From positions 1-23,653 of IMG/VR virus record IMGVR_UViG_3300010153_000119: 23,653 nucleotides of DNA. One strand, written 5' to 3'. This DNA comes from a virus. The notes under the pieces were generated by a model, which had not been told where the DNA came from, did not search any database, and was given only the letters and a program-made list of their open reading frames with translations. A program made the translations under genes and the position numbers. Positions 13,283 through 23,653 of the stretch are shown here, piece after piece (the first letter of the stretch is position 1; every line of letters begins with the position of its first letter).

Positions 13283-13325
13283 AAAAAAAAGAAAACCACC
13301 CCGGCCCAATTGCCGGGGCGTTTTC
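13283..13325 (-). terminator. Strong terminator/attenuator after the capsid genes
   Basis: On the - strand GAAAAC, a one-base bulge, CCCCGGC, loop AATTGG, GCCGGGG, two bases, GTTTTC and then eight T form a 13-bp interrupted stem with a good T-tract. It lies between the second capsid gene and the connector gene. In a continuous late operon this would reduce downstream expression relative to capsid protein. Confidence 0.85.
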
Positions 13326-13342: not shown

Positions 13343-14650
13343 TTAAACCGGGTCCGTCACCATATACGCCGCGCTCGCCGCGTGTGCGGTGTTTGCGTTT
13401 GCGTATACGTTCATAATTAAACGAGTGATGCCTAGGTGTGCGCTAGTGAACTCGTCGACTACTAAGTCAGCCCCGCCCCAATAACAAACGTAGACGTCGT
13501 CCATATTTGCGAAAAGGAACGGCTCAAGAGTTGCGTCGTTAGTTACTGCGGTCGAGGCGCCTCCGCCGTATACCTCATTATAAGTGTTATAACTTGCGTC
13601 CGTTATTCGGCTAACGTTACATAAAGAAGTTGCGAGGGCCTCATAGCCCGCGATATTTCCGTTTTGTAAAATTCCGACCCCCGAGTTACTTACGGCCTCA
13701 GTTACTCGGCCCTCAGCTAGTGAAGCATAAGACCCGAAAAATTTGGAGTTATCTCCGATTCCGTTCGCGTCGCCTACCTTAGCGATAAGCCCGTTAACAT
13801 TTTGGAAAGTTAGACCCGTAACAACCGCCGCCGCCGTTTCCTTTCTTTCCATATATGTCGCGGTCTTGTCAGCTATAACGTTGTCGATAAATTGCTGGTC
13901 GATAAGTGCGCCCGAGTGCTTACGGAACTGGCTAGCCACCACCGAGTCAAAGGCGCCCGAGGACATATTTAACGCTTGTTGCGATATCGTAATCATAGAC
14001 GCCATTTTTACCGGGTCTATTTTACGCCCCGACATAGCCGACGAACTTGGCGCCGTTGTCACCTCCGCAATTATATCGGTTGCGTCCGTTGGTAAGCTAG
14101 GCAAAAGAACCGAACCCGCTACGCCGGTTATTCTATTCGCGCCCGCTCTCTCAAGTAATGAGTCAGGAACTAGGCCTTGCAATACACTTTGTTGAGTCTC
14201 GCCTATTACGTTCGACGTTGTGCTTACCGTGTCGGCTCTTTTTTCCATTAGAGCGATAGGAATCTGAAGTGTACCGCTTGGCGAAATTCCAGCCTCACGG
14301 AACTCGTTGCGAGCCTCCTGAGCCATTTCAGCCTCGAGACCCGTAAGCCTCCCGGTGCCGGCCTCTTTTATCGCTTTACCTAAGTTATAAGCGTCGCGGT
14401 TTTCTTTCATCTCTTTACTTCCGTTATCACTTACGGCGTGACTAACCGGAGCCGCTTGGCGCTTAAGAGTGGCCTCAAGTTTTTCGGCCCTTTCGATTTG
14501 CTGGTCTAGGTCTGAGACCTCGCCCATAATATTTTCGCTAAGGGTTACCTCCTCGGCGTTCATTTCTCGCGCCTCTGCTGAGGTAACGAGGGACTCGAGG
14601 GCGTCAATACGCTCGCCTCTCGCCTCTTTTAATTGTTTTGAATTTTTCAC
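13343..14650 (-). CDS. HK97-fold major capsid protein, paralog with delta domain (MCP-A)
   Basis: A 435-aa protein. Residues 1-70 are a charged coiled coil (LKEARGERIDALESL, NIMGEVSDLDQQIERAEKLEATLKRQ), matching the delta/scaffold domain cleaved from HK97-type precursors. The rest is the capsid body: GLEAEMAQEARNEFREAGI, DPVKMASMITISQQALNMSS (A-domain/spine region), KHSGALIDQQFIDNVI, CYWGGADLVVDEFTSAHLG and TRLIMNVYANA. The start is GTG at 14650, 41 bases after the stop of the sister gene. The body is clearly homologous to the protein of 14692-15840, with a nearly identical 3' stretch in DNA. The strong terminator follows. It could be the main hexamer/pentamer subunit. Confidence 0.9.
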   Translation of the reverse strand: MKNSKQLKEARGERIDALESLVTSAEAREMNAEEVTLSENIMGEVSDLDQQIERAEKLEATLKRQAAPVSHAVSDNGSKEMKENRDAYNLGKAIKEAGTGRLTGLEAEMAQEARNEFREAGISPSGTLQIPIALMEKRADTVSTTSNVIGETQQSVLQGLVPDSLLERAGANRITGVAGSVLLPSLPTDATDIIAEVTTAPSSSAMSGRKIDPVKMASMITISQQALNMSSGAFDSVVASQFRKHSGALIDQQFIDNVIADKTATYMERKETAAAVVTGLTFQNVNGLIAKVGDANGIGDNSKFFGSYASLAEGRVTEAVSNSGVGILQNGNIAGYEALATSLCNVSRITDASYNTYNEVYGGGASTAVTNDATLEPFLFANMDDVYVCYWGGADLVVDEFTSAHLGITRLIMNVYANANTAHAASAAYMVTDPV

Positions 14651-14691
14651 TTTATATATAAATTAAAATTTAGGTGATTTTTGAAAATTTT

Positions 14692-15840
14692 CTAAGTTGG
14701 TTTAGTTACAAAATAAGCCGCGTTAAGTTCGTGGCCGACTTTTGCGTTAGCGTATATATTCATAATTAAACGAGTGACGCCTAGGTGTGCGCTAGTAAAC
14801 TCGTCGACTATTAAGTCAGCCCCGCCCCAATAACAAGCGTAAACGTCGTCAAAATTTACAAACATAAAAGGCTCGAAATTAGCCGCGTCGGTTAAACCTC
14901 CAACCCCGGAGCGATACACCTCTTGCACGCTATTATAATCGTCGTCCGTCAACCGGTCCGGGTTACATAGCGAAGTCGTGAGGGCGTCATATCCGGCAAG
15001 TTTTGACCCTTGTAACATTCCGACCCCCGAGTCGGTTATAAAAGGGGTAATTCTCGCGTCTGACATAGACCCCGGCGACCCTATAAATTTGCAATTTCGA
15101 CTTGTATTTAAGTCCGGCCCGTTAGTTCCGTCGTAATTTTCTAAAGTCACGCGGCCGCTATTTCCGACGCTATGGATTAACTCGTTAATATTTGCCGCCG
15201 TTACCGTTCCGATTGAGCCGCTCGCGTCGGCCGTTTCGTGTCTTAAAACTCGTGGGCCGTAAGCACTCGGTGTACTCGCTGAAATTACGTTGTCGATAAA
15301 TTGCTGGTCGAGTAAGGCGTTCGAGTGTTTTATAAATTGATTAGTACAAACCTCATTAAAATTACTCGAGGACATACCGAGCGCCTGATTTGACACCGTA
15401 ATCATAGACGCCATTTTTACCGGGTCTATTGAGTTCGAAGTCATAACGTCCGAGTCGGTGGCCGTCGTCGTTTCGTCTTTTATGTTTGTCGCGTTAACCG
15501 GAGCGCTAGGAATTAAAACGGTACCCGTACAATTTCGGGCGATATTTGCGCCGCCCTTTTCTAAAAGTGAGGGCGGAATTAAACCTTGTAAATTTTTAAC
15601 TTGAGTCGACCCTTTGCCTCCGTAGTCAGTCGCGACGGTCGTCGCCCTTTTTTCCATTATAAAGGACGGAATTTGTAACGAGCCGCTCGTTGTAATTCCC
15701 GCCTCGCTAAATTCGCGCCGTGCCTCCTGACACATCTCAGCCTCGAGGCCGGAAAGGTTGCCCTCGCTAGTCTCTCGAATTGCTTTATTTATATCGAACG
15801 CCTTGCGGGTTTCTTTTATTTCGTTCGCCTCGCTTTTCAC
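14692..15840 (-). CDS. HK97-fold major capsid protein, paralog without delta domain (MCP-B)
   Basis: A 382-aa protein aligning with MCP-A from its first residues on: KAFDINKAIRETSEGNLSGL against NLGKAIKEAGTGRLTGL. It therefore lacks the coiled-coil delta domain. Shared blocks include DPVKMASMITVSNQALGMSS, ALLDQQFIDNVI, CYWGGADLIVDEFTSAHLG and TRLIMNIYANA. The start overlaps the protease stop codon by 4 bases (ATGA), indicating translational coupling. It has a longer A-domain-like region (residues about 185-250, ANINELIHSVGNSGRVTLENYDG) than MCP-A. It may be a co-assembling minor subunit, a subunit that borrows scaffold function from the protease C-terminus, or the dominant capsid protein; sequence alone does not decide. 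Confidence 0.87.
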   Translation of the reverse strand: MKSEANEIKETRKAFDINKAIRETSEGNLSGLEAEMCQEARREFSEAGITTSGSLQIPSFIMEKRATTVATDYGGKGSTQVKNLQGLIPPSLLEKGGANIARNCTGTVLIPSAPVNATNIKDETTTATDSDVMTSNSIDPVKMASMITVSNQALGMSSSNFNEVCTNQFIKHSNALLDQQFIDNVISASTPSAYGPRVLRHETADASGSIGTVTAANINELIHSVGNSGRVTLENYDGTNGPDLNTSRNCKFIGSPGSMSDARITPFITDSGVGMLQGSKLAGYDALTTSLCNPDRLTDDDYNSVQEVYRSGVGGLTDAANFEPFMFVNFDDVYACYWGGADLIVDEFTSAHLGVTRLIMNIYANAKVGHELNAAYFVTKPT

Positions 15841-16529
15841 TTTGTAGACTTTAGAGCGTTAAGTTTCTGACGTATTAAGTAGCTTTTTAACTCGGCTTTT
15901 TTATCGCTAGTTGGCTCCTCGTCCATTTTAAGGGGTTCCTCTTGGACGTTCTCACCTTCCGAGGTGTCTGAGTCCCTTAGTTCTTTTTCGTCGCTTAAAT
16001 CGTCGTTAAATGCGTCTTGAGAGCGTAAAGCAACCGAGGCCTCCGGATAGGCGCCAGTCGTTACGGCGCTCACGTCTATAAGTTGGCCGACCTTGTTAAT
16101 AGTTCTAAGGTCTAGGTCGTCGGCTCTTTTTTCCCAACTTTCGCCCTCGACAGTAAAAGCGAACGACGAACCGCTTACGATTCCGCGCTTCATTAGTTCC
16201 GTCAAGTCGCGGCCGGTTGTGGTGTCCGGAATATCAAAGCCATATTTTAAGCCTCTTTTATCGACTGACAAGTCTAAACCCGCCCCAACTTTTGCGAGGG
16301 GCTGGTTAGTGTTGTGATTCAAAGCGGCGACGACGTTGTCCTTAAGGCGACCCTCAAAGGCGCCCGGGGCGATTACTTCGGCAAAGCGTCCCGCGATAGT
16401 TGTCTCGCTATTAAAGACGGCGGCGTAACCTTCAACCCTTCGAACCCCGTCGACCTCTCTAATTTCGACGCCGGGAGTTTTTTCGGCCTCAGCCGTGAGG
16501 ACAAAACGCCTCTCTAATTTATTGCTCAT
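15837..16529 (-). CDS. Prohead protease (S78 family) with acidic C-terminal extension
   Basis: A 230-aa protein. The family core is evident: VEGYAAVFN (residues 32-40), FAEVIAPGAFEGRL (49-62), VVAALNHNTNQPLAKV with catalytic H72, and GIVSGSSFAFTVEG with the catalytic Ser at about 122, followed by SAVTTGAYPEASVALRS. It processes capsid precursors during head maturation. Residues 175-230 form a highly charged tail (acidic, then KKAELKSYLIRQKLNALK) that could be a scaffold-like segment. It overlaps the portal gene by 11 bases and MCP-B by 4 bases. The tail ending exactly where a delta-less capsid gene starts is noteworthy. Confidence 0.92.
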   Translation of the reverse strand: MSNKLERRFVLTAEAEKTPGVEIREVDGVRRVEGYAAVFNSETTIAGRFAEVIAPGAFEGRLKDNVVAALNHNTNQPLAKVGAGLDLSVDKRGLKYGFDIPDTTTGRDLTELMKRGIVSGSSFAFTVEGESWEKRADDLDLRTINKVGQLIDVSAVTTGAYPEASVALRSQDAFNDDLSDEKELRDSDTSEGENVQEEPLKMDEEPTSDKKAELKSYLIRQKLNALKSTK

Positions 16530-17745
16530 TATTCTCGTTATTAGTGGACCCCTCGACGGCTTGCACCGGGTTCGATAGCGGGGTTAAATTGACTTGTATA
16601 AAATGCTCGTCACCTCCTTCGACCGGGTTAAGGTTTTCGAGTTTTTCGCGGGCCTCGTTTATACTAACGACGCCGTCGCGAATTAAGGCGCTAAAATATT
16701 CGCCCCGGGTTTTGGCGTCGGCTCTTAATAGGCTCGAAATATTAAAACGAATTTCTATGTTTTGGGTCTCCTTTTCGCTCAATAATTTAAGGCATAGCTC
16801 TTGTTCGATAGCCCTCAGAAGTGGCTGAATTGTGTAGGTGGCAAAAAATATGCCTTGTTGTTCGACATTCGAAAAGGTGACATTTGTATCTAAACCAATA
16901 AGCGCCGGCGGGACTCCAAAAATTCGCGTCACCTCCTCGGCTTGGTATTTACGAACTTGCGTTAATTGCGAGGCCTCCGGGTTCGTCCCTATTCGGTCGT
17001 ATTTCATACCGTGTTCAAGGATAGCGGTCGAGTGCTGGGCGCCCTTGCCGTGGTTGCGTGAGTGCCACGCAAAATTCAGCCGGTTAAATTGCTCCTCGGT
17101 GAGTGAGTGGTCCGTTGAAATAATACCCGAAACATTGCCACCATTCTCGAAAAAAGAAAGGCCAAAATTTTCGGCCGACTTGGCAAGGCTTAACGTCTCG
17201 CTATGTAAAACCGCCGCCGACTCACTTCGAAAGTTTTTAATAATAACCAACTCGTCCGGGAGGTAAATTTCGTCGGCCTCTTTTAAGACGTAGGCCTTAA
17301 GTTCGTCAGTCCCCAAAGTGGTAACCTCCATATCTTCGGCGGGCAAATATTCAAGGCCTATAACTCGGGCATTTTTATCTCTATGAATTAAGGCGAACCC
17401 CTCGCCGAAAATTAGGGAGTCGCTTAGAATTTTTTCCCATAATTCAAAGGCCGTAAAATCGCGAAAAGGCGATTTTTTTAATAGGTTTGTAAGTGGGTGA
17501 GTGATTCGGTTCTGCTTTAAGCCGTCGACTTTGAAAAGGTCGACGTCTAAACTTGCGACAGTTTGGGCGATTTTTTGAACACAAGCGCGAACGACTGACG
17601 ACTCCAACGCCGTCGCCGGGGTTACTTTATTCGACCCGCCTAAAATAGCCCCAACGGAACCCGCTAAGGCCGACGAGTAGCTACGGCCCTCGGGTTTTGT
17701 TTCGGGTTGAGGTTGTCGGTTAAAAATTCGGTCGAGTAGTCCCAT
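16519..17745 (-). CDS. Portal protein (HK97 family)
   Basis: A 408-aa protein of the phage_portal family, the dodecameric DNA entry channel at the capsid vertex. Visible markers: VVRACVQKIAQTVASLDVDLFK (N-terminal wing helix), HPLTNLLKKSPFRDFTAFELWEKILSDSLIFGEGFALI, PAEDMEVTTLG, QVRKYQAEEVTRIFGVPPALIGL (the family's most conserved motif), and FATYTIQPLLRAIEQELCLKLL (stem/clip helix), ending in the crown-like helical REYFSALIRDGVVSINEAREKL. Length matches HK97 gp3. It overlaps the protease gene by 11 bases. Confidence 0.95.
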   Translation of the reverse strand: MGLLDRIFNRQPQPETKPEGRSYSSALAGSVGAILGGSNKVTPATALESSVVRACVQKIAQTVASLDVDLFKVDGLKQNRITHPLTNLLKKSPFRDFTAFELWEKILSDSLIFGEGFALIHRDKNARVIGLEYLPAEDMEVTTLGTDELKAYVLKEADEIYLPDELVIIKNFRSESAAVLHSETLSLAKSAENFGLSFFENGGNVSGIISTDHSLTEEQFNRLNFAWHSRNHGKGAQHSTAILEHGMKYDRIGTNPEASQLTQVRKYQAEEVTRIFGVPPALIGLDTNVTFSNVEQQGIFFATYTIQPLLRAIEQELCLKLLSEKETQNIEIRFNISSLLRADAKTRGEYFSALIRDGVVSINEAREKLENLNPVEGGDEHFIQVNLTPLSNPVQAVEGSTNNENNEQ

Positions 17746-17794: not shown

Positions 17795-18091
17795 TTAGCG
17801 GTCGACTCGGCCGTCGTGCCAGTCGTCGGGGTCGCGGTGGTCTCTCTCCAGTCCGGACCCCATACACTCCGGACAAGTTTTATAAATAGGATATTCCCAA
17901 CCGAACGGCCCAACCTCACCAAACCCGCAACAACTCGGACACTCCTCCGGGGTTTCGGGTTCTAAAAGTTCACACTCCTCGCCACAATCCGAGCAAATAT
18001 TTAAGTCAACACTATAAGCCGCCGACTCGCAACAATCCGAAAGGCCGGACGGGTTTTTTAAGTTTTCTAATTCGAGGCGTTTTTTTGTCAT
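17795..18091 (-). CDS. Cys-rich zinc-binding protein (DnaJ-type zinc finger-like, 98 aa)
   Basis: Two zinc-binding clusters are visible. The first has C20 and C21 with C33/C36/C40 (ICSDCGEEC). The second has C51/C54 (CPSCCGFGEVG) and C73/C76 (CPECMGSG), matching the C-x-x-C-x-G-x-G repeats of DnaJ zinc domains. A charged C-terminal tail follows. Such small proteins are frequent in phages of Bacteroidota, but a function is not established to my knowledge. The start overlaps the metallophosphoesterase stop by 4 bases (ATGA), and the portal starts 50 bases beyond its end. Confidence 0.78.
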   Translation of the reverse strand: MTKKRLELENLKNPSGLSDCCESAAYSVDLNICSDCGEECELLEPETPEECPSCCGFGEVGPFGWEYPIYKTCPECMGSGLERDHRDPDDWHDGRVDR

Positions 18092-18840
18092 AGTCTTAAA
18101 TTAAAAAATTCCGAACAACCTCGCTCGTCTATAACGACAAAGCCGGCGCCGTGGTTCCAGTTATTTCGAACTAAGTAATCGGGTTGCAATTCGCATAAGC
18201 ACCCGAGCGCGTGGGTAATCGTTGGCTCGCCTAATATATCGCGACTTGTGTAAGTGTCCGACTTATGAAAGTGGCCGCAAAACGCCGACCGGTTCGTTCT
18301 AAGTTGTAACCAGCGAGCGGGCTGAACACCGCCCGAACCTTTGCCGACTTCGTGGCCGTGGACCCCTACAATATCGCCGAACTTGACAACCCTCCACGAC
18401 TCAACAAACTCGACGCCGTAATCATAGGCCTCGAATAAGTCGCGTAAATTATAACGGGCCACTCCGATAAGTTCGGGCGCCTTAGTTTTTAGGTAACGGT
18501 CGAAACGGTCCTCGTGATTTCCAACCTTAAACCAAACCGTCCCGGGGTTTAATTTTTCGCGTAAATAATCGAGTAATTTTTTACCCGTTTCGAGTTCGTC
18601 GTTTAGGTTCCTTTCGTTGGGGTCTTTTGCGAAATTGCTGAGACTGTAAAAGTCTAAAAAATCGCCGTTAATATATACGTCCGTTGCGCCGTTTTCGATT
18701 CCATATTTTACCGCCTTTTCGATAGCCTTCGAGTCGTGGAAAGGGACGTGGATATCCGATAAAATTAAAACCCGGCGAGGCCCTTTAATATGTAAAGGGC
18801 GGCGCGAGGTTGTCGGTTGGCTTGCCGGTATTTTATTCAC
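18088..18840 (-). CDS. Calcineurin-like metallophosphoesterase
   Basis: A 250-aa protein with the full set of metal-ligand motifs of the superfamily: SDIHVP (D29, H31), NGDFLD (D60), GNHEDR (N108, H109), VHGHE (H161, H163) and GHFHKSD (H190, H192). It should be a two-metal phosphoesterase; phage members may hydrolyse nucleic-acid or nucleotide phosphates, but substrate cannot be read from sequence. The start is GTG at 18840, overlapping the preceding holin-like gene by 8 bases; the N-terminal 20 residues (Ser/Thr/Arg/Pro-rich) look unstructured, so a later start near residue 20 is conceivable. Confidence 0.93.
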   Translation of the reverse strand: MNKIPASQPTTSRRPLHIKGPRRVLILSDIHVPFHDSKAIEKAVKYGIENGATDVYINGDFLDFYSLSNFAKDPNERNLNDELETGKKLLDYLREKLNPGTVWFKVGNHEDRFDRYLKTKAPELIGVARYNLRDLFEAYDYGVEFVESWRVVKFGDIVGVHGHEVGKGSGGVQPARWLQLRTNRSAFCGHFHKSDTYTSRDILGEPTITHALGCLCELQPDYLVRNNWNHGAGFVVIDERGCSEFFNLRL

Positions 18841-19282
18841 GCCTTTTTTTTATAGATTTTTCAACCGTGCGACCCGTAAAGTAAGCCCCGAAAACGGTGA
18901 AAACTAAAACCCTCAAAAGTTCGAACCACTCAGCCGAAAGGGTAAAGTTTAACTTTTGAAAACCCTCTAAAATTAAAACGAAAAAAAGAAACAAAAGGCA
19001 AGACGCTAAAACTAGCGGCCGGATATTTTTCGCGAGCCGTGAGTCGCTTTTCATATCCAAACCCCAACGCTCAGAAACTTCGCGGGCTTGCTCAATTTTT
19101 AACTCCTTAATTAAAAGGCGCATATTAACAACGTCTTTTTGTTTGGTTAGCCTATTTTCTAAAAACATACTCAACACCTCCAGCGCCCCGCCGTCCGGAA
19201 TAATATGGCCGACGAGTTGGATAATATCGGGGGCGGTGGTTTTAAGCCACCGCCCGAGGTTCGTATTTTTTAGAGGTCTCAA
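18833..19282 (-). CDS. 3TM holin-like membrane protein (GTA_holin-type)
   Basis: A 149-aa protein. Residues 45-75 are a charged helix that resembles the cytoplasmic part of GTA-type holins, SRLAKNIRPL (81-90) gives the family's conserved RP-L motif, hydrophobic segments occur at about 90-106 and 121-137, and GAYFTGRTVEKSIKK at the end matches the conserved G-R-x-x-E-K signature. Known members are thought to form membrane lesions in lysis. It starts at TTG 19282 (MRPLKN...), 11 bases after the upstream small gene's stop. No earlier in-frame ATG exists. An alternative is a membrane protein of other function. It is far from the amidase gene. Confidence 0.75.
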   Translation of the reverse strand: MRPLKNTNLGRWLKTTAPDIIQLVGHIIPDGGALEVLSMFLENRLTKQKDVVNMRLLIKELKIEQAREVSERWGLDMKSDSRLAKNIRPLVLASCLLFLFFVLILEGFQKLNFTLSAEWFELLRVLVFTVFGAYFTGRTVEKSIKKRRE

Positions 19283-20267: not shown

Positions 20268-20628
20268 TGTTTTCGTTTTTTGGGACGCTCCAGTCGGTAA
20301 AATTCGACCGGTGTAAAGTTAGCAACTCGTCGGCTTTTCTTGTCACGTTCTCAAGTTTTGCCTCGAGGTTTCTAACTCTCGCCGCTAGGTAAATATTTAC
20401 GTCCTTTTGTTCGGCCAAATATACAACCTCGCGCTCGAGTTCGTCCTCCATTTCAGAGCATAAAACTAAAACCTTATTTAATACCTCAACCGTTCGCGTC
20501 ATTACATCGTAATCGACGGCCCGTAAAACGTCGCGCTCCTTTTCTAAGTGGTCGAGGACCCACAAACAAAACCCGCTCCCTATATTCCGGGAGCGGATTC
20601 GTTCAAGTTTTCTATCGTAGTAATTCAT
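20236..20628 (-). CDS. Hypothetical coiled-coil protein (130 aa)
   Basis: No family is recognised. Two helical stretches dominate: residues 12-75 with heptad-like leucines and valines (VLDHLEKERDVLRAVDY, VEVLNKVLVLCSEMEDELEREVVYLAEQ) and 80-105 (AARVRNLEAKLENVTRKADELLTL), which should form coiled coils. The C-terminus is a polar tail ending in KIKPRRT that is coded in the 32-base overlap with the next gene. The start shares one base with the ArdC-like gene stop (TAATG), so the two are translationally coupled. Confidence 0.75.
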   Translation of the reverse strand: MNYYDRKLERIRSRNIGSGFCLWVLDHLEKERDVLRAVDYDVMTRTVEVLNKVLVLCSEMEDELEREVVYLAEQKDVNIYLAARVRNLEAKLENVTRKADELLTLHRSNFTDWSVPKNENNEQKIKPRRT

Positions 20629-21554
20629 TATTCGCCGAGCATATAGTTAACGGCCTTAATAGCTTGTTGAGAGGCTACGACTATCGTCTTTGGGTCTGAG
20701 TCTTTAAGTCTCTTAATCCAACCGTTAATATAAGCCTGAGAGTTCTTTGAGTCGTCGGTTGGCTTTATTCCAGTTATTCCGGTTAGGTACTCGCTACCGA
20801 GTTCCGCGATTAACTCCTCGTTGCTATATACCTCAGTCCCGAACCCGTTAAATTCGACGATTCCCTTACGCTTTAAACCGCTTTCGTGTCCGGTCGAGTG
20901 TGTCAACTCGTGGAAAAGAGTCTTGTAATAATCGTCCGAACTTAAAAAGCTATCCTTTTCCGGCATAGTTACGGCGTGAGTCATAGGTTGGTAAAAGGCT
21001 TGGCTCCCTCGGTGGCTGAGGGTTGGCTTATTCTCGTAATTATTATAAATTTTTTCAGCCTCCTCGATAGGCGAAAAAACTGGGGCGTCGGTCGCTTTAC
21101 GCTTAGGCTCTAGGTTTTCAAATTGTGCGATATTGAAAACGTAAAAAGAACGCATAGAGAAAAACTTATTACACTCTGACGGCTTAACGCCCGCCTTTTT
21201 TAGTTGCGCCTCGCTATTGTAGTAAACGCCGGTTTTCTTGTGCTTATAAGAAACGGCCCAGTATACGACGAACTGACTTTTATCTTTTGCCGTTTCGCCT
21301 TTCTTTAATTTTGCGCCTATATTTTGGCCTTGCTTATAAGTGAGCCACTCGTTAGACTCATAGCCCTCGGTCTCTTTAACCATATTAAGCCAAAAGATAT
21401 TGAAACCCGTGTAATTTTTCTCGGTGGTGTGGTTCATAGGTCCGTTAAAAGAACCGGCCCAAGGGCGGAACCACTTAAGACCCTTCTCCTCTAGGCCCTC
21501 GATTACTCGGTTAGTAATTAACTCGTAAATGTTAGTTTTTGTTTGCTTTGTCAT
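20628..21554 (-). CDS. ArdC-like antirestriction protein (ssDNA-binding domain plus zincin)
   Basis: A 308-aa protein. Residues 1-145 match the N-terminal ArdC ssDNA-binding domain: YELITNRVIEGLEEKGLKWFRPW, NYTGFNIFWL, WLTYKQGQNIGAKLKKGE and a YVFNIAQFENL closing strand. Residues 180-260 hold a zinc metallopeptidase-like domain: FHELTHSTGHESGLKR with H215/E216/H219 and the third ligand probably in EELIAELGSEYL (about 246-251). ArdC proteins protect incoming DNA from type I restriction in known cases; the protease-like domain is typical of the group and its activity in phages is unclear. It has its own promoter and a leader shared with the 632 gene on the opposite strand, and heads a four-gene group. 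Confidence 0.88.
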   Translation of the reverse strand: MTKQTKTNIYELITNRVIEGLEEKGLKWFRPWAGSFNGPMNHTTEKNYTGFNIFWLNMVKETEGYESNEWLTYKQGQNIGAKLKKGETAKDKSQFVVYWAVSYKHKKTGVYYNSEAQLKKAGVKPSECNKFFSMRSFYVFNIAQFENLEPKRKATDAPVFSPIEEAEKIYNNYENKPTLSHRGSQAFYQPMTHAVTMPEKDSFLSSDDYYKTLFHELTHSTGHESGLKRKGIVEFNGFGTEVYSNEELIAELGSEYLTGITGIKPTDDSKNSQAYINGWIKRLKDSDPKTIVVASQQAIKAVNYMLGE

Positions 21555-22387: not shown

Positions 22388-22630
22388 GGGTGCCTTTTTT
22401 TTACGAAATTCCTTAAATTTACCCTTTCGACGCTTACAAGTCCACACATAAAAGGCGTTCAAAGTGGGGAATTTAAACACTCCGAACAAGTCGTCGTGTA
22501 TCATTTCGACCTCATAATATACAACCGTCGCCGTTTTTTGTCCGTCTAATTTTTCAAGGAAAACTTCAAAAAAACCCTCCCGAGTGTAAAGTCGTCGGGC
22601 TAATTTTAGGCGTTTTTTATCCTCGTTCAT
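22382..22630 (-). CDS. Hypothetical basic protein (82 aa)
   Basis: No family recognised. The preferred start is ATG 22630 (MNEDKKRLKLARRLYTREGFF), which overlaps the terminase stop by 4 bases (ATGA); a start at 22687 would lie deep inside the terminase gene. The protein has a basic helix (1-20), beta strands (EVFLEKLDG, TATVVYYEVEMIHDD) and a Lys/Arg-rich tail (CKRRKGKFKEFRKKKAPF), suggesting nucleic-acid contact. Its position next to the terminase invites comparison with HNH or head-packaging accessory genes, but no HNH motif is present. Confidence 0.7.
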   Translation of the reverse strand: MNEDKKRLKLARRLYTREGFFEVFLEKLDGQKTATVVYYEVEMIHDDLFGVFKFPTLNAFYVWTCKRRKGKFKEFRKKKAPF

Positions 22631-23653
22631 AGCGTCCGGATAGTAAAATCGTCGGGCAAAGTTGGGGCCGTTTCTTCGTCGTTCCAAGTCATAAACTCAC
22701 CGAGGGCCATAACCAAGGCAACCAACCCGTCGACTTTTCCGCTCTTGCTTTTCGTGATTTTCACGTTTCCGGCGGGGTCGTAAGTAAGGGCCACGGCGCC
22801 AAGTTGCCACTCGAGGACCGGGTCGCCGTCGTGTTTAAGTTTACCGTCTAGTATTAAACGCTCGGCCTCTTTTGTTGGTGCTGACTGGCTGACGAACCCC
22901 ATACCAAAAGGAGCGCACTCGACGCCGTCGTTAGTTATGTCGATAATCAACTGGCTCGAGTTGTAACGGTCGAACGCTACACTTTTAAGTTCGTATTTAG
23001 TGGCTAAACAATCCGGGTCGACTATAACCCGCCCCTCGTCGTTCGTGTGGTGTCCGGTTATCATTTTCCGGACGTAGTCGTAATCCGTGACGTTGCCGGG
23101 AGTGACGTGGACGTTATCGAGGTCGGCGAGTTTGGCATATATTGTGCTTTCGTCCTCCTCGAGTTTTCTTTCAATAGCCCGCTCAGGCACAAAAAAGTGA
23201 ACCTTTATTAAAAAATCATTTTCCCGAGGGAATAATAAAGCGAGGGCCGTCATATCCGAAACGCTCCCGAGGTCTAAACCAGCATAACAAACCGCCCCGG
23301 GTTCGGGTTCGTCTTTTGTAATATTTGCCCGCCAGTTATCCCGGTCGACCCATTGAGACGACGAACTTACAAAGATATTAAGGTGCTTAGTCATAAACTC
23401 GACAACCGCACGACCTCCGGCGTTTTGGGCTTGCTTACATTGGTGAGTTAGATATTCGTAACTAATAGACTCACCGAGGCCGGGGTTTGATTTTATCCAC
23501 GTCGCGGGGTCTTTCCAGTCGTCGCCCTCGTCAATTTGAAACATTAGGGCGAAAGTCCTCTCGTCAGTCTTTAAACCGTCGAGGACCGCCTTCGCCGTTT
23601 TCATAATAGAGGCCGCCGGGCCGTCGATATTAAACCCGGCCGTCGTAATTGCT
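22627..23653 (-). CDS. terL: Terminase large subunit, C-terminal part (runs off the window)
   Basis: The frame is open to the right edge; upstream of the first visible ATG (23604) it continues as AITTAGFNIDGPAAS, so that ATG is internal. ITTAG is the coupling-type motif at the end of the ATPase domain of the Terminase_1 family. Then come DEGDDWKDPATWIKSNPGLG, a strongly conserved family segment, and the nuclease domain starting CYAGLDLGSVSDMTALALLF, whose Asp pair should be the first metal ligands of an RNase H-like fold, followed by VIVDPDCLATKYELKSVAFDRYNSSQL and a final acidic/basic part. The ATPase Walker motifs are outside the window. It powers DNA packaging through the portal. No small subunit is visible; it may lie further right. 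Confidence 0.93.
   Translation of the reverse strand, partial: AITTAGFNIDGPAASIMKTAKAVLDGLKTDERTFALMFQIDEGDDWKDPATWIKSNPGLGESISYEYLTHQCKQAQNAGGRAVVEFMTKHLNIFVSSSSQWVDRDNWRANITKDEPEPGAVCYAGLDLGSVSDMTALALLFPRENDFLIKVHFFVPERAIERKLEEDESTIYAKLADLDNVHVTPGNVTDYDYVRKMITGHHTNDEGRVIVDPDCLATKYELKSVAFDRYNSSQLIIDITNDGVECAPFGMGFVSQSAPTKEAERLILDGKLKHDGDPVLEWQLGAVALTYDPAGNVKITKSKSGKVDGLVALVMALGEFMTWNDEETAPTLPDDFTIRTL

Follow-up and report, generated by a model that had tools for sequence, protein, structure and literature searches.

The window analyzed here, a linear IMG/VR record of 23,653 bases from an uncultured tailed phage, encodes two HK97-fold major capsid proteins in tandem, MCP-A and MCP-B. MCP-A is the orthologue of the only capsid protein found in related phages, and MCP-B is a fast-evolving paralogue that lacks the N-terminal coiled coil of MCP-A while keeping the rest of its pro-region and the whole capsid body. 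By analogy with the known mixed shells of this fold, we propose that MCP-B is a working, specialised capsid protein that co-assembles with MCP-A as a minor subunit, most likely at the pentons, with MCP-A forming the hexons. We give this reading a probability of about 0.4.

Two capsid genes in an HK97-type head module

The head genes follow one another on the minus strand in the order TerL nuclease domain, portal, S78 protease, MCP-B, MCP-A, adaptor, and head-closure protein, and are followed by the tail genes (Table 1). The two capsid genes are complete open reading frames, their products are 53% identical across 378 amino acids (E 3e-135), and the tandem is known from one metagenomic contig. 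The PF05065 profile, which has a curated cut-off of 24.2 bits, gives 27.0 bits to MCP-A, above the threshold, and 24.0 to MCP-B, a borderline value 0.2 bit short of it. The AlphaFold monomer models of the two proteins are of moderate confidence (pLDDT 73-75) and their top Foldseek matches are HK97-fold capsids (R4C, GTA, and HK97 itself). The best match of both is the capsid of the marine siphophage R4C (8gta), with E 2e-13 for MCP-A and 1e-11 for MCP-B. With both frames intact at the coordinates of Table 1 and both models matching HK97-fold capsids, the initial annotation of two tandem capsid genes stands. The same is true of its claim that MCP-B has a full capsid body, as the predicted model retains the whole body. 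The insertion that distinguishes MCP-B in the alignment probably belongs to the A-domain. We found no match of either protein to a T4-type capsid family at E 0.001; they match PF05065 and phrog_617/phrog_10 only and by this search do not belong to the T4 gp23/gp24 family proper.

Table 1. Features of the head-gene region, with positions in the window
Feature	Position	Strand	Basis or remark
TerL nuclease domain	22627-23604	-	head-gene block
Portal protein gene	16519..17745	-	PF04860, E 2.7e-82
S78 prohead protease gene	15837..16529	-	PF04586, E 4e-42
Charged C-terminal tail of the protease	about 15840-16019	-	also in single-MCP relatives
Protease stop and MCP-B start, overlapping as GTGA	15837..15840	-	same where protease and single MCP meet in L004 and L005
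MCP-B, 382 aa, capsid paralogue with the HK97 fold, lacking the coiled-coil module	14692..15840	-	
Pro-region retained by MCP-B, residues 1-68, helical, capsomer-lining type (predicted)	15637..15840	-	model, R4C mapping, ancestral states
MCP-B insertion region, residues 229-248	15097..15156	-	alignment with MCP-A and relatives
MCP-B/MCP-A leader, 41 nt, AT-rich	14651..14691	-	no counterpart in close relatives
MCP-A, 435 aa, orthologue of the relatives' single MCP	13343..14650	-	
N-terminal coiled-coil module of MCP-A, residues 4-66	14453..14641	-	model; found in full-length relatives
Second pro-region module of MCP-A, residues 75-130, common to MCP-B	14261..14428	-	
Terminator-like hairpin right after MCP-A	13297..13320	-	9 pairs, T-rich tail

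The hairpin that follows MCP-A is in a position equivalent to that of an annotated terminator in HK97, and such matches are not commoner than in shuffled sequences. Several other genes of the window deserve mention. The interval that separates TerL from the portal encodes, on the minus strand, an ArdC-type antirestriction protein (ArdcN and a zincin-like metallopeptidase, 20628-21554) as well as a holin-like protein and a metallophosphoesterase (18088-19282). An amidase (PF01510, 2482-2946) is distant from the holin-like gene. The head-closure gene Hc1 (PF05521, 11561-12664, minus strand) has a product of 367 residues, which the corresponding proteins of contigs L004 and L005 match only at residues 1-80 and over the final ~25-45. 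The insert near its C-terminus, of about 240-260 residues, has no Pfam match and by eye resembles two tandem repeats of the beta-sandwich or carbohydrate-binding type. The distant cellular matches are mostly in Bacteroidota, a weak hint that the host may belong there.

The pro-region of MCP-B

The model of MCP-A starts with two long helices (residues 4-25 and 32-66), both absent in MCP-B. These are followed by a low-confidence linker (64-78), a second helical module (75-130) that finishes in a short strand, another zone of low confidence (137-158), and the capsid body. The model of MCP-B has the helices of the second module (3-14, 17-26, and 31-47), a low-confidence zone (64-87), and the whole body. 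More precisely, MCP-B residues 3-63 correspond to MCP-A 75-136, that is, to the second pro-region module, and residues 64-87 to the disordered zone of the cleavage site and N-arm, and only the coiled-coil module (MCP-A residues ~3-77) is absent. The start codon and first codons of MCP-B resemble those of MCP-A and then jump to MCP-A position ~78, so that the N-terminus of the gene looks as it would after an in-frame deletion. A misannotated start does not account for the missing module, because the open frame gains just 6 codons above the GTG (388 against 382).

A profile alignment to HK97 gp5 gave no significant match (probability 0.5%), and we therefore placed the cleavage zone using the solved mature capsid of R4C, whose chain spans residues ~362-629, the mature portion of a gene product of 629 residues. 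The first residue of the mature chain in 8gta maps to MCP-A ~143 and to MCP-B ~69, so that ~66 residues of MCP-B belong to the part that should be removed by cleavage. In HK97, residues 2-66 of the delta domain form trimeric coiled-coil towers on the hexons that surround the portal, and residues 76-103 form a helix-turn-strand that lines the capsomer from below, with the cleavage site in a flexible stretch (PMC10275583). Judging from position and predicted structure, MCP-B would have lost the counterpart of the former and retained that of the latter. Of the features of an HK97-type head module with a delta domain, the window has the PF04586 protease encoded next door and both N-terminal modules in MCP-A, with the second only in MCP-B, and cleavage is predicted. 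These results revise the initial annotation, which had MCP-B starting right at the capsid body and a delta/scaffold domain in one gene only: the N-terminal coiled coil is indeed confined to MCP-A, but MCP-B keeps about half of the delta domain ahead of the expected cleavage zone. The stretch corresponding to MCP-A 80-130 (window positions 14261-14413), with the motif GLEAEM.QE, is among the most conserved of the whole MCP family, and it sits in the pro-region expected to be removed, outside the mature capsid body.

It had also been suggested that the charged tail of the protease supplies scaffold function to MCP-B. We rejected this idea, as the tail is common to relatives that have one MCP bearing a coiled coil. 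A protease-MCP-B fusion produced by frameshifting was considered as well; the two frames overlap by only ~6 codons, with no classical slippery heptamer, which makes ordinary stop-start reinitiation more likely.

Relatives with a single capsid gene

We searched IMG/VR and GTDB genomes for relatives using alignments, the portal, and degenerate patterns. The resulting MCP family set has 155 loci and 119 distinct proteins, 74 of which have usable flanks on both sides. A second MCP was found in none of the 155 loci, i.e., the MCP-B partner accompanies 0 of the 119 distinct related MCPs, and the pair is not a feature conserved in the group. The pair therefore appears to be lineage-specific and not durable beyond its own lineage, which leaves room for a transitional duplicate. 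One locus (L178) initially looked like a two-MCP locus; we interpret its two overlapping matches in different frames as a single gene with a frameshift. Searches of IMG/VR with individual proteins, and tblastn of MCP-B against GenBank phages, returned no relative, and MCP-A has one distant record among GenBank phages (25%). A scan for the IDPVKMA pattern gave mostly chance matches and one new locus with such an MCP, on a contig already in the set.

The four closest contigs (L004/L058, L005/L040, L006/L041/L070, and L039) have portals 72-77% and proteases 67-72% identical to those of the window, and an MCP that is 73-76% identical to MCP-A over the part present. In each, the gene next after the protease encodes the only MCP, which is orthologous to MCP-A and has the coiled coil. 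The single-MCP relatives resemble the window in their orthologous portal and protease and, where covered, in the adaptor and tail tube. The four close contigs differ from it in having neither a second MCP nor the leader between MCP-B and MCP-A. In L004 and L005 the GTG of the MCP overlaps the protease stop as GTGA, as it does in MCP-B, and MCP-B is therefore in the ancestral slot. The start context of MCP-A in the window is different, with the AT-rich leader of 41 nt. A separate observation concerns the tail: in many relatives with ~45% MCP identity (L044, L045, L049, L052, L067, L073, L075, L085, and others) we found two adjacent tail-tube-protein matches, possibly tandem tail-tube paralogues, and the window and its closest relatives have a single such match.

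Origin of MCP-B and selection on the gene

In the phylogenetic tree, MCP-B lies inside the clade of MCP-A and its closest relatives (support 81/83 to 93/92), and the next larger clade around this group has support of 97/99 to 100/100. The terminal branch of MCP-B is 0.8-1.1 long, against 0.13-0.14 for MCP-A, which amounts to roughly six-fold faster evolution. A clade of MCP-A and MCP-B has a p-AU of 0.25 and a clade of MCP-A and the relatives does about equally well, neither being rejected. The best explanation for these sequences is that MCP-B arose by duplication within its own lineage or was captured from a very close relative; given its position in the tree, the event would thus be about as old as the divergence between this phage and its closest known relatives. 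At fourfold sites, every comparison involving window genes shows strong divergence. Exact matches between the MCP-A and MCP-B genes reach 34 nt, and toward the C-terminus, in a block picked after inspection, the two have more synonymous codons in common than either shares with the relatives. This block, chosen as it was, suggests later gene conversion between the two genes, and hence their coexistence in one genome. The synonymous codon use of MCP-B correlates with that of most window genes at 0.73-0.87, and with that of the tail tube gene at 0.57.

The open reading frame of MCP-B has no stop in 382 codons, while neutral drift from MCP-A would produce a mean of 3.5 stops at 0.1 substitutions per site and of 6.3 at 0.2. 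Moreover, MCP-B retains the ancestral residue at 76% of the family-invariant sites, compared with 44-64% of the sites shared by less than half of the relatives (pooled 47/101, ~47%; Fisher p 3.5e-5 for invariant against poorly shared sites, among those with a clear ancestral residue). The best-kept parts are the pro-region (residues 1-40, 75%) and the C-terminal core (321-360, 79%), and the least conserved stretch is 201-240, which contains an insertion. The absence of stops and the preferential retention of conserved sites indicate that MCP-B is under purifying selection and make a pseudogene unlikely. At the same time, 22 sites that are invariant in the relatives have changed in MCP-B, mainly within residues 81-113 (N-arm and start of the E-loop), 162-174 (spine helix), and 260-270. 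In HK97-type shells these stretches, like 201-240, probably take part in capsomer contacts, and their change would fit an altered neighbourhood of the subunit; it could equally be compatible with relaxed constraint.

A proposed minor subunit of the shell

A shell of mixed subunits, already put forward in the initial annotation, remains the best reading because MCP-B is under purifying selection and parallels T4 gp24 and SaPIbov5 Ccm; the arguments that had been drawn from the delta domain and the protease tail fail. After duplication within the lineage, or capture from a very close relative, MCP-A would have remained the main shell protein, forming the hexons and providing coiled-coil towers like those that dock the portal on the hexons of HK97, and MCP-B would form the pentons. 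Since the portal towers of HK97 come from hexons only, a subunit restricted to pentons, which contribute nothing to the towers, would have no need of the coiled coil and could drop it at no cost. The loss would even help to exclude MCP-B from the hexons adjacent to the portal. The retained module would admit MCP-B to the procapsid under the MCP-A scaffold, and the S78 protease would then cleave off both pro-regions. That an HK97-type siphophage divides the labour in exactly this way, with hexons and portal-docking coiled coil assigned to MCP-A and a penton protein from which precisely that module was deleted and the capsomer-lining one kept, is a more tentative proposal, which we consider somewhat unlikely.

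Other explanations were weighed against a penton role. It is unlikely, if deserving of attention, that MCP-B is a non-essential, transitional duplicate or captured copy drifting toward loss under relaxed constraint. Its absence from all the relatives examined, its long branch, the lost N-terminal module, and the 22 changes at invariant sites would be as expected of such a gene, but at least several stops should have accumulated neutrally where we find none, conserved sites are selectively retained, and the gene stands at the front of the operon, where its start overlaps the protease stop. We judge it less probable again that MCP-B enters the shell without a fixed place, mixing at random into MCP-A capsomers and so diluting the coiled coils and stabilising the shell or adjusting its size. 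A protein that is 53% identical to MCP-A, with its body fold complete and the capsomer-lining module in place, and without the coiled coil that forms towers inside the HK97 shell, could mix in this manner; nevertheless, the changes at invariant sites affect likely subunit contacts, which would disfavour free mixing within a capsomer, and both known precedents of mixed HK97-fold shells put the paralogue at the pentons.

A role of MCP-B in regulating assembly, as a determinant of shell size or shape, or as a decoy that caps growing shells or acts against competing phages or satellites, seems improbable. Ccm does offer a model for it, with its shortened delta domain, its redirection of shell size, and its inability to build shells alone (PMC8569155), but it works by occupying pentons, and the explanation then largely merges with the penton one. 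Moreover, the head operon of the phage itself carries MCP-B in cis, and the window, which encodes portal, protease, tail genes, and the TerL nuclease domain, is not a satellite. The presence of its own adaptors and tail tube, next to these genes, also led us to reject its assignment to the SaPI/PICI capsid-redirecting (Ccm) class. Finally, the tandem could be an artefact joining the capsid genes of two co-occurring strains, which the sequence makes possible but unlikely, and to which we give a very low probability. It is seen in a single metagenomic contig and in no relative, and the exact runs shared by the two genes could tangle a k-mer assembler. Against this, both genes are complete, the junctions are clean and gene-sized, the neighbours are not partially duplicated, gene order on either side of the tandem agrees with that of the same relatives, and the codon use of MCP-B fits the window. 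A strain with MCP-B only would, in addition, lack the coiled coil seen in the inspected full-length relatives with one MCP.

Comparison with known capsid systems

In the literature searched, we found two precedents of mixed HK97-fold shells with a capsid paralogue or homologue, both of which place it at the pentons. T4 gp24 is probably a duplicate of gp23 and has a pro-peptide of 10 residues against 65 (PMC9958956). Ccm of SaPIbov5 is a homologue of an HK97-type capsid protein whose delta domain has 87 residues against 128; it cannot form shells alone and redirects shell size (PMC8569155). The pro-region of MCP-B (~68 residues against ~140) would fit this pattern of shortened pro-peptides. In the open-licence literature searched, we found no described case of capsid duplication with specialisation in a small HK97-type siphophage with a fused scaffold.

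The window pair resembles each of these systems in part. It shares with HK97 the order of portal, protease, and MCP, the protease family, the fold, and a scaffold made of a coiled coil and a capsomer-lining part (PMC10275583), but HK97 uses one protein for all capsomers. Like Ccm in relation to the phi12 capsid protein, MCP-B is an HK97-type homologue with a shortened delta domain that may enter a mixed shell at the pentons, as Ccm does. However, Ccm comes from a satellite and works in trans, its target being a helper phage, whereas MCP-B is encoded in cis, and the delta domain of Ccm is shortened without being demonstrably stripped of one module. If MCP-B is structural, it would amount to a deletion made by nature, in which the portal-docking coiled coil is split off from the capsomer-lining half of the delta domain, and two small proteins would suffice to test which subunit bears the scaffold in a mixed shell of the HK97 type. 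Like gp24, MCP-B is a co-encoded capsid paralogue under selection, with a pro-peptide much shorter than that of the major protein, and its vertex position is putative. The gp24 gene is thought to derive from a duplication of the major capsid gene that is ancient, gp23 and gp24 being ~20% identical, and it belongs to a large prolate myophage whose scaffold core is separate, not of the PF05065/S78 type. In contrast, the two proteins of the window are still 53% identical and are encoded in a small HK97-type cassette where the scaffold is fused to the capsid protein; if MCP-B is part of the shell, the pair would be an early-stage example of the hexon/penton specialisation that T4 exemplifies in an old form.
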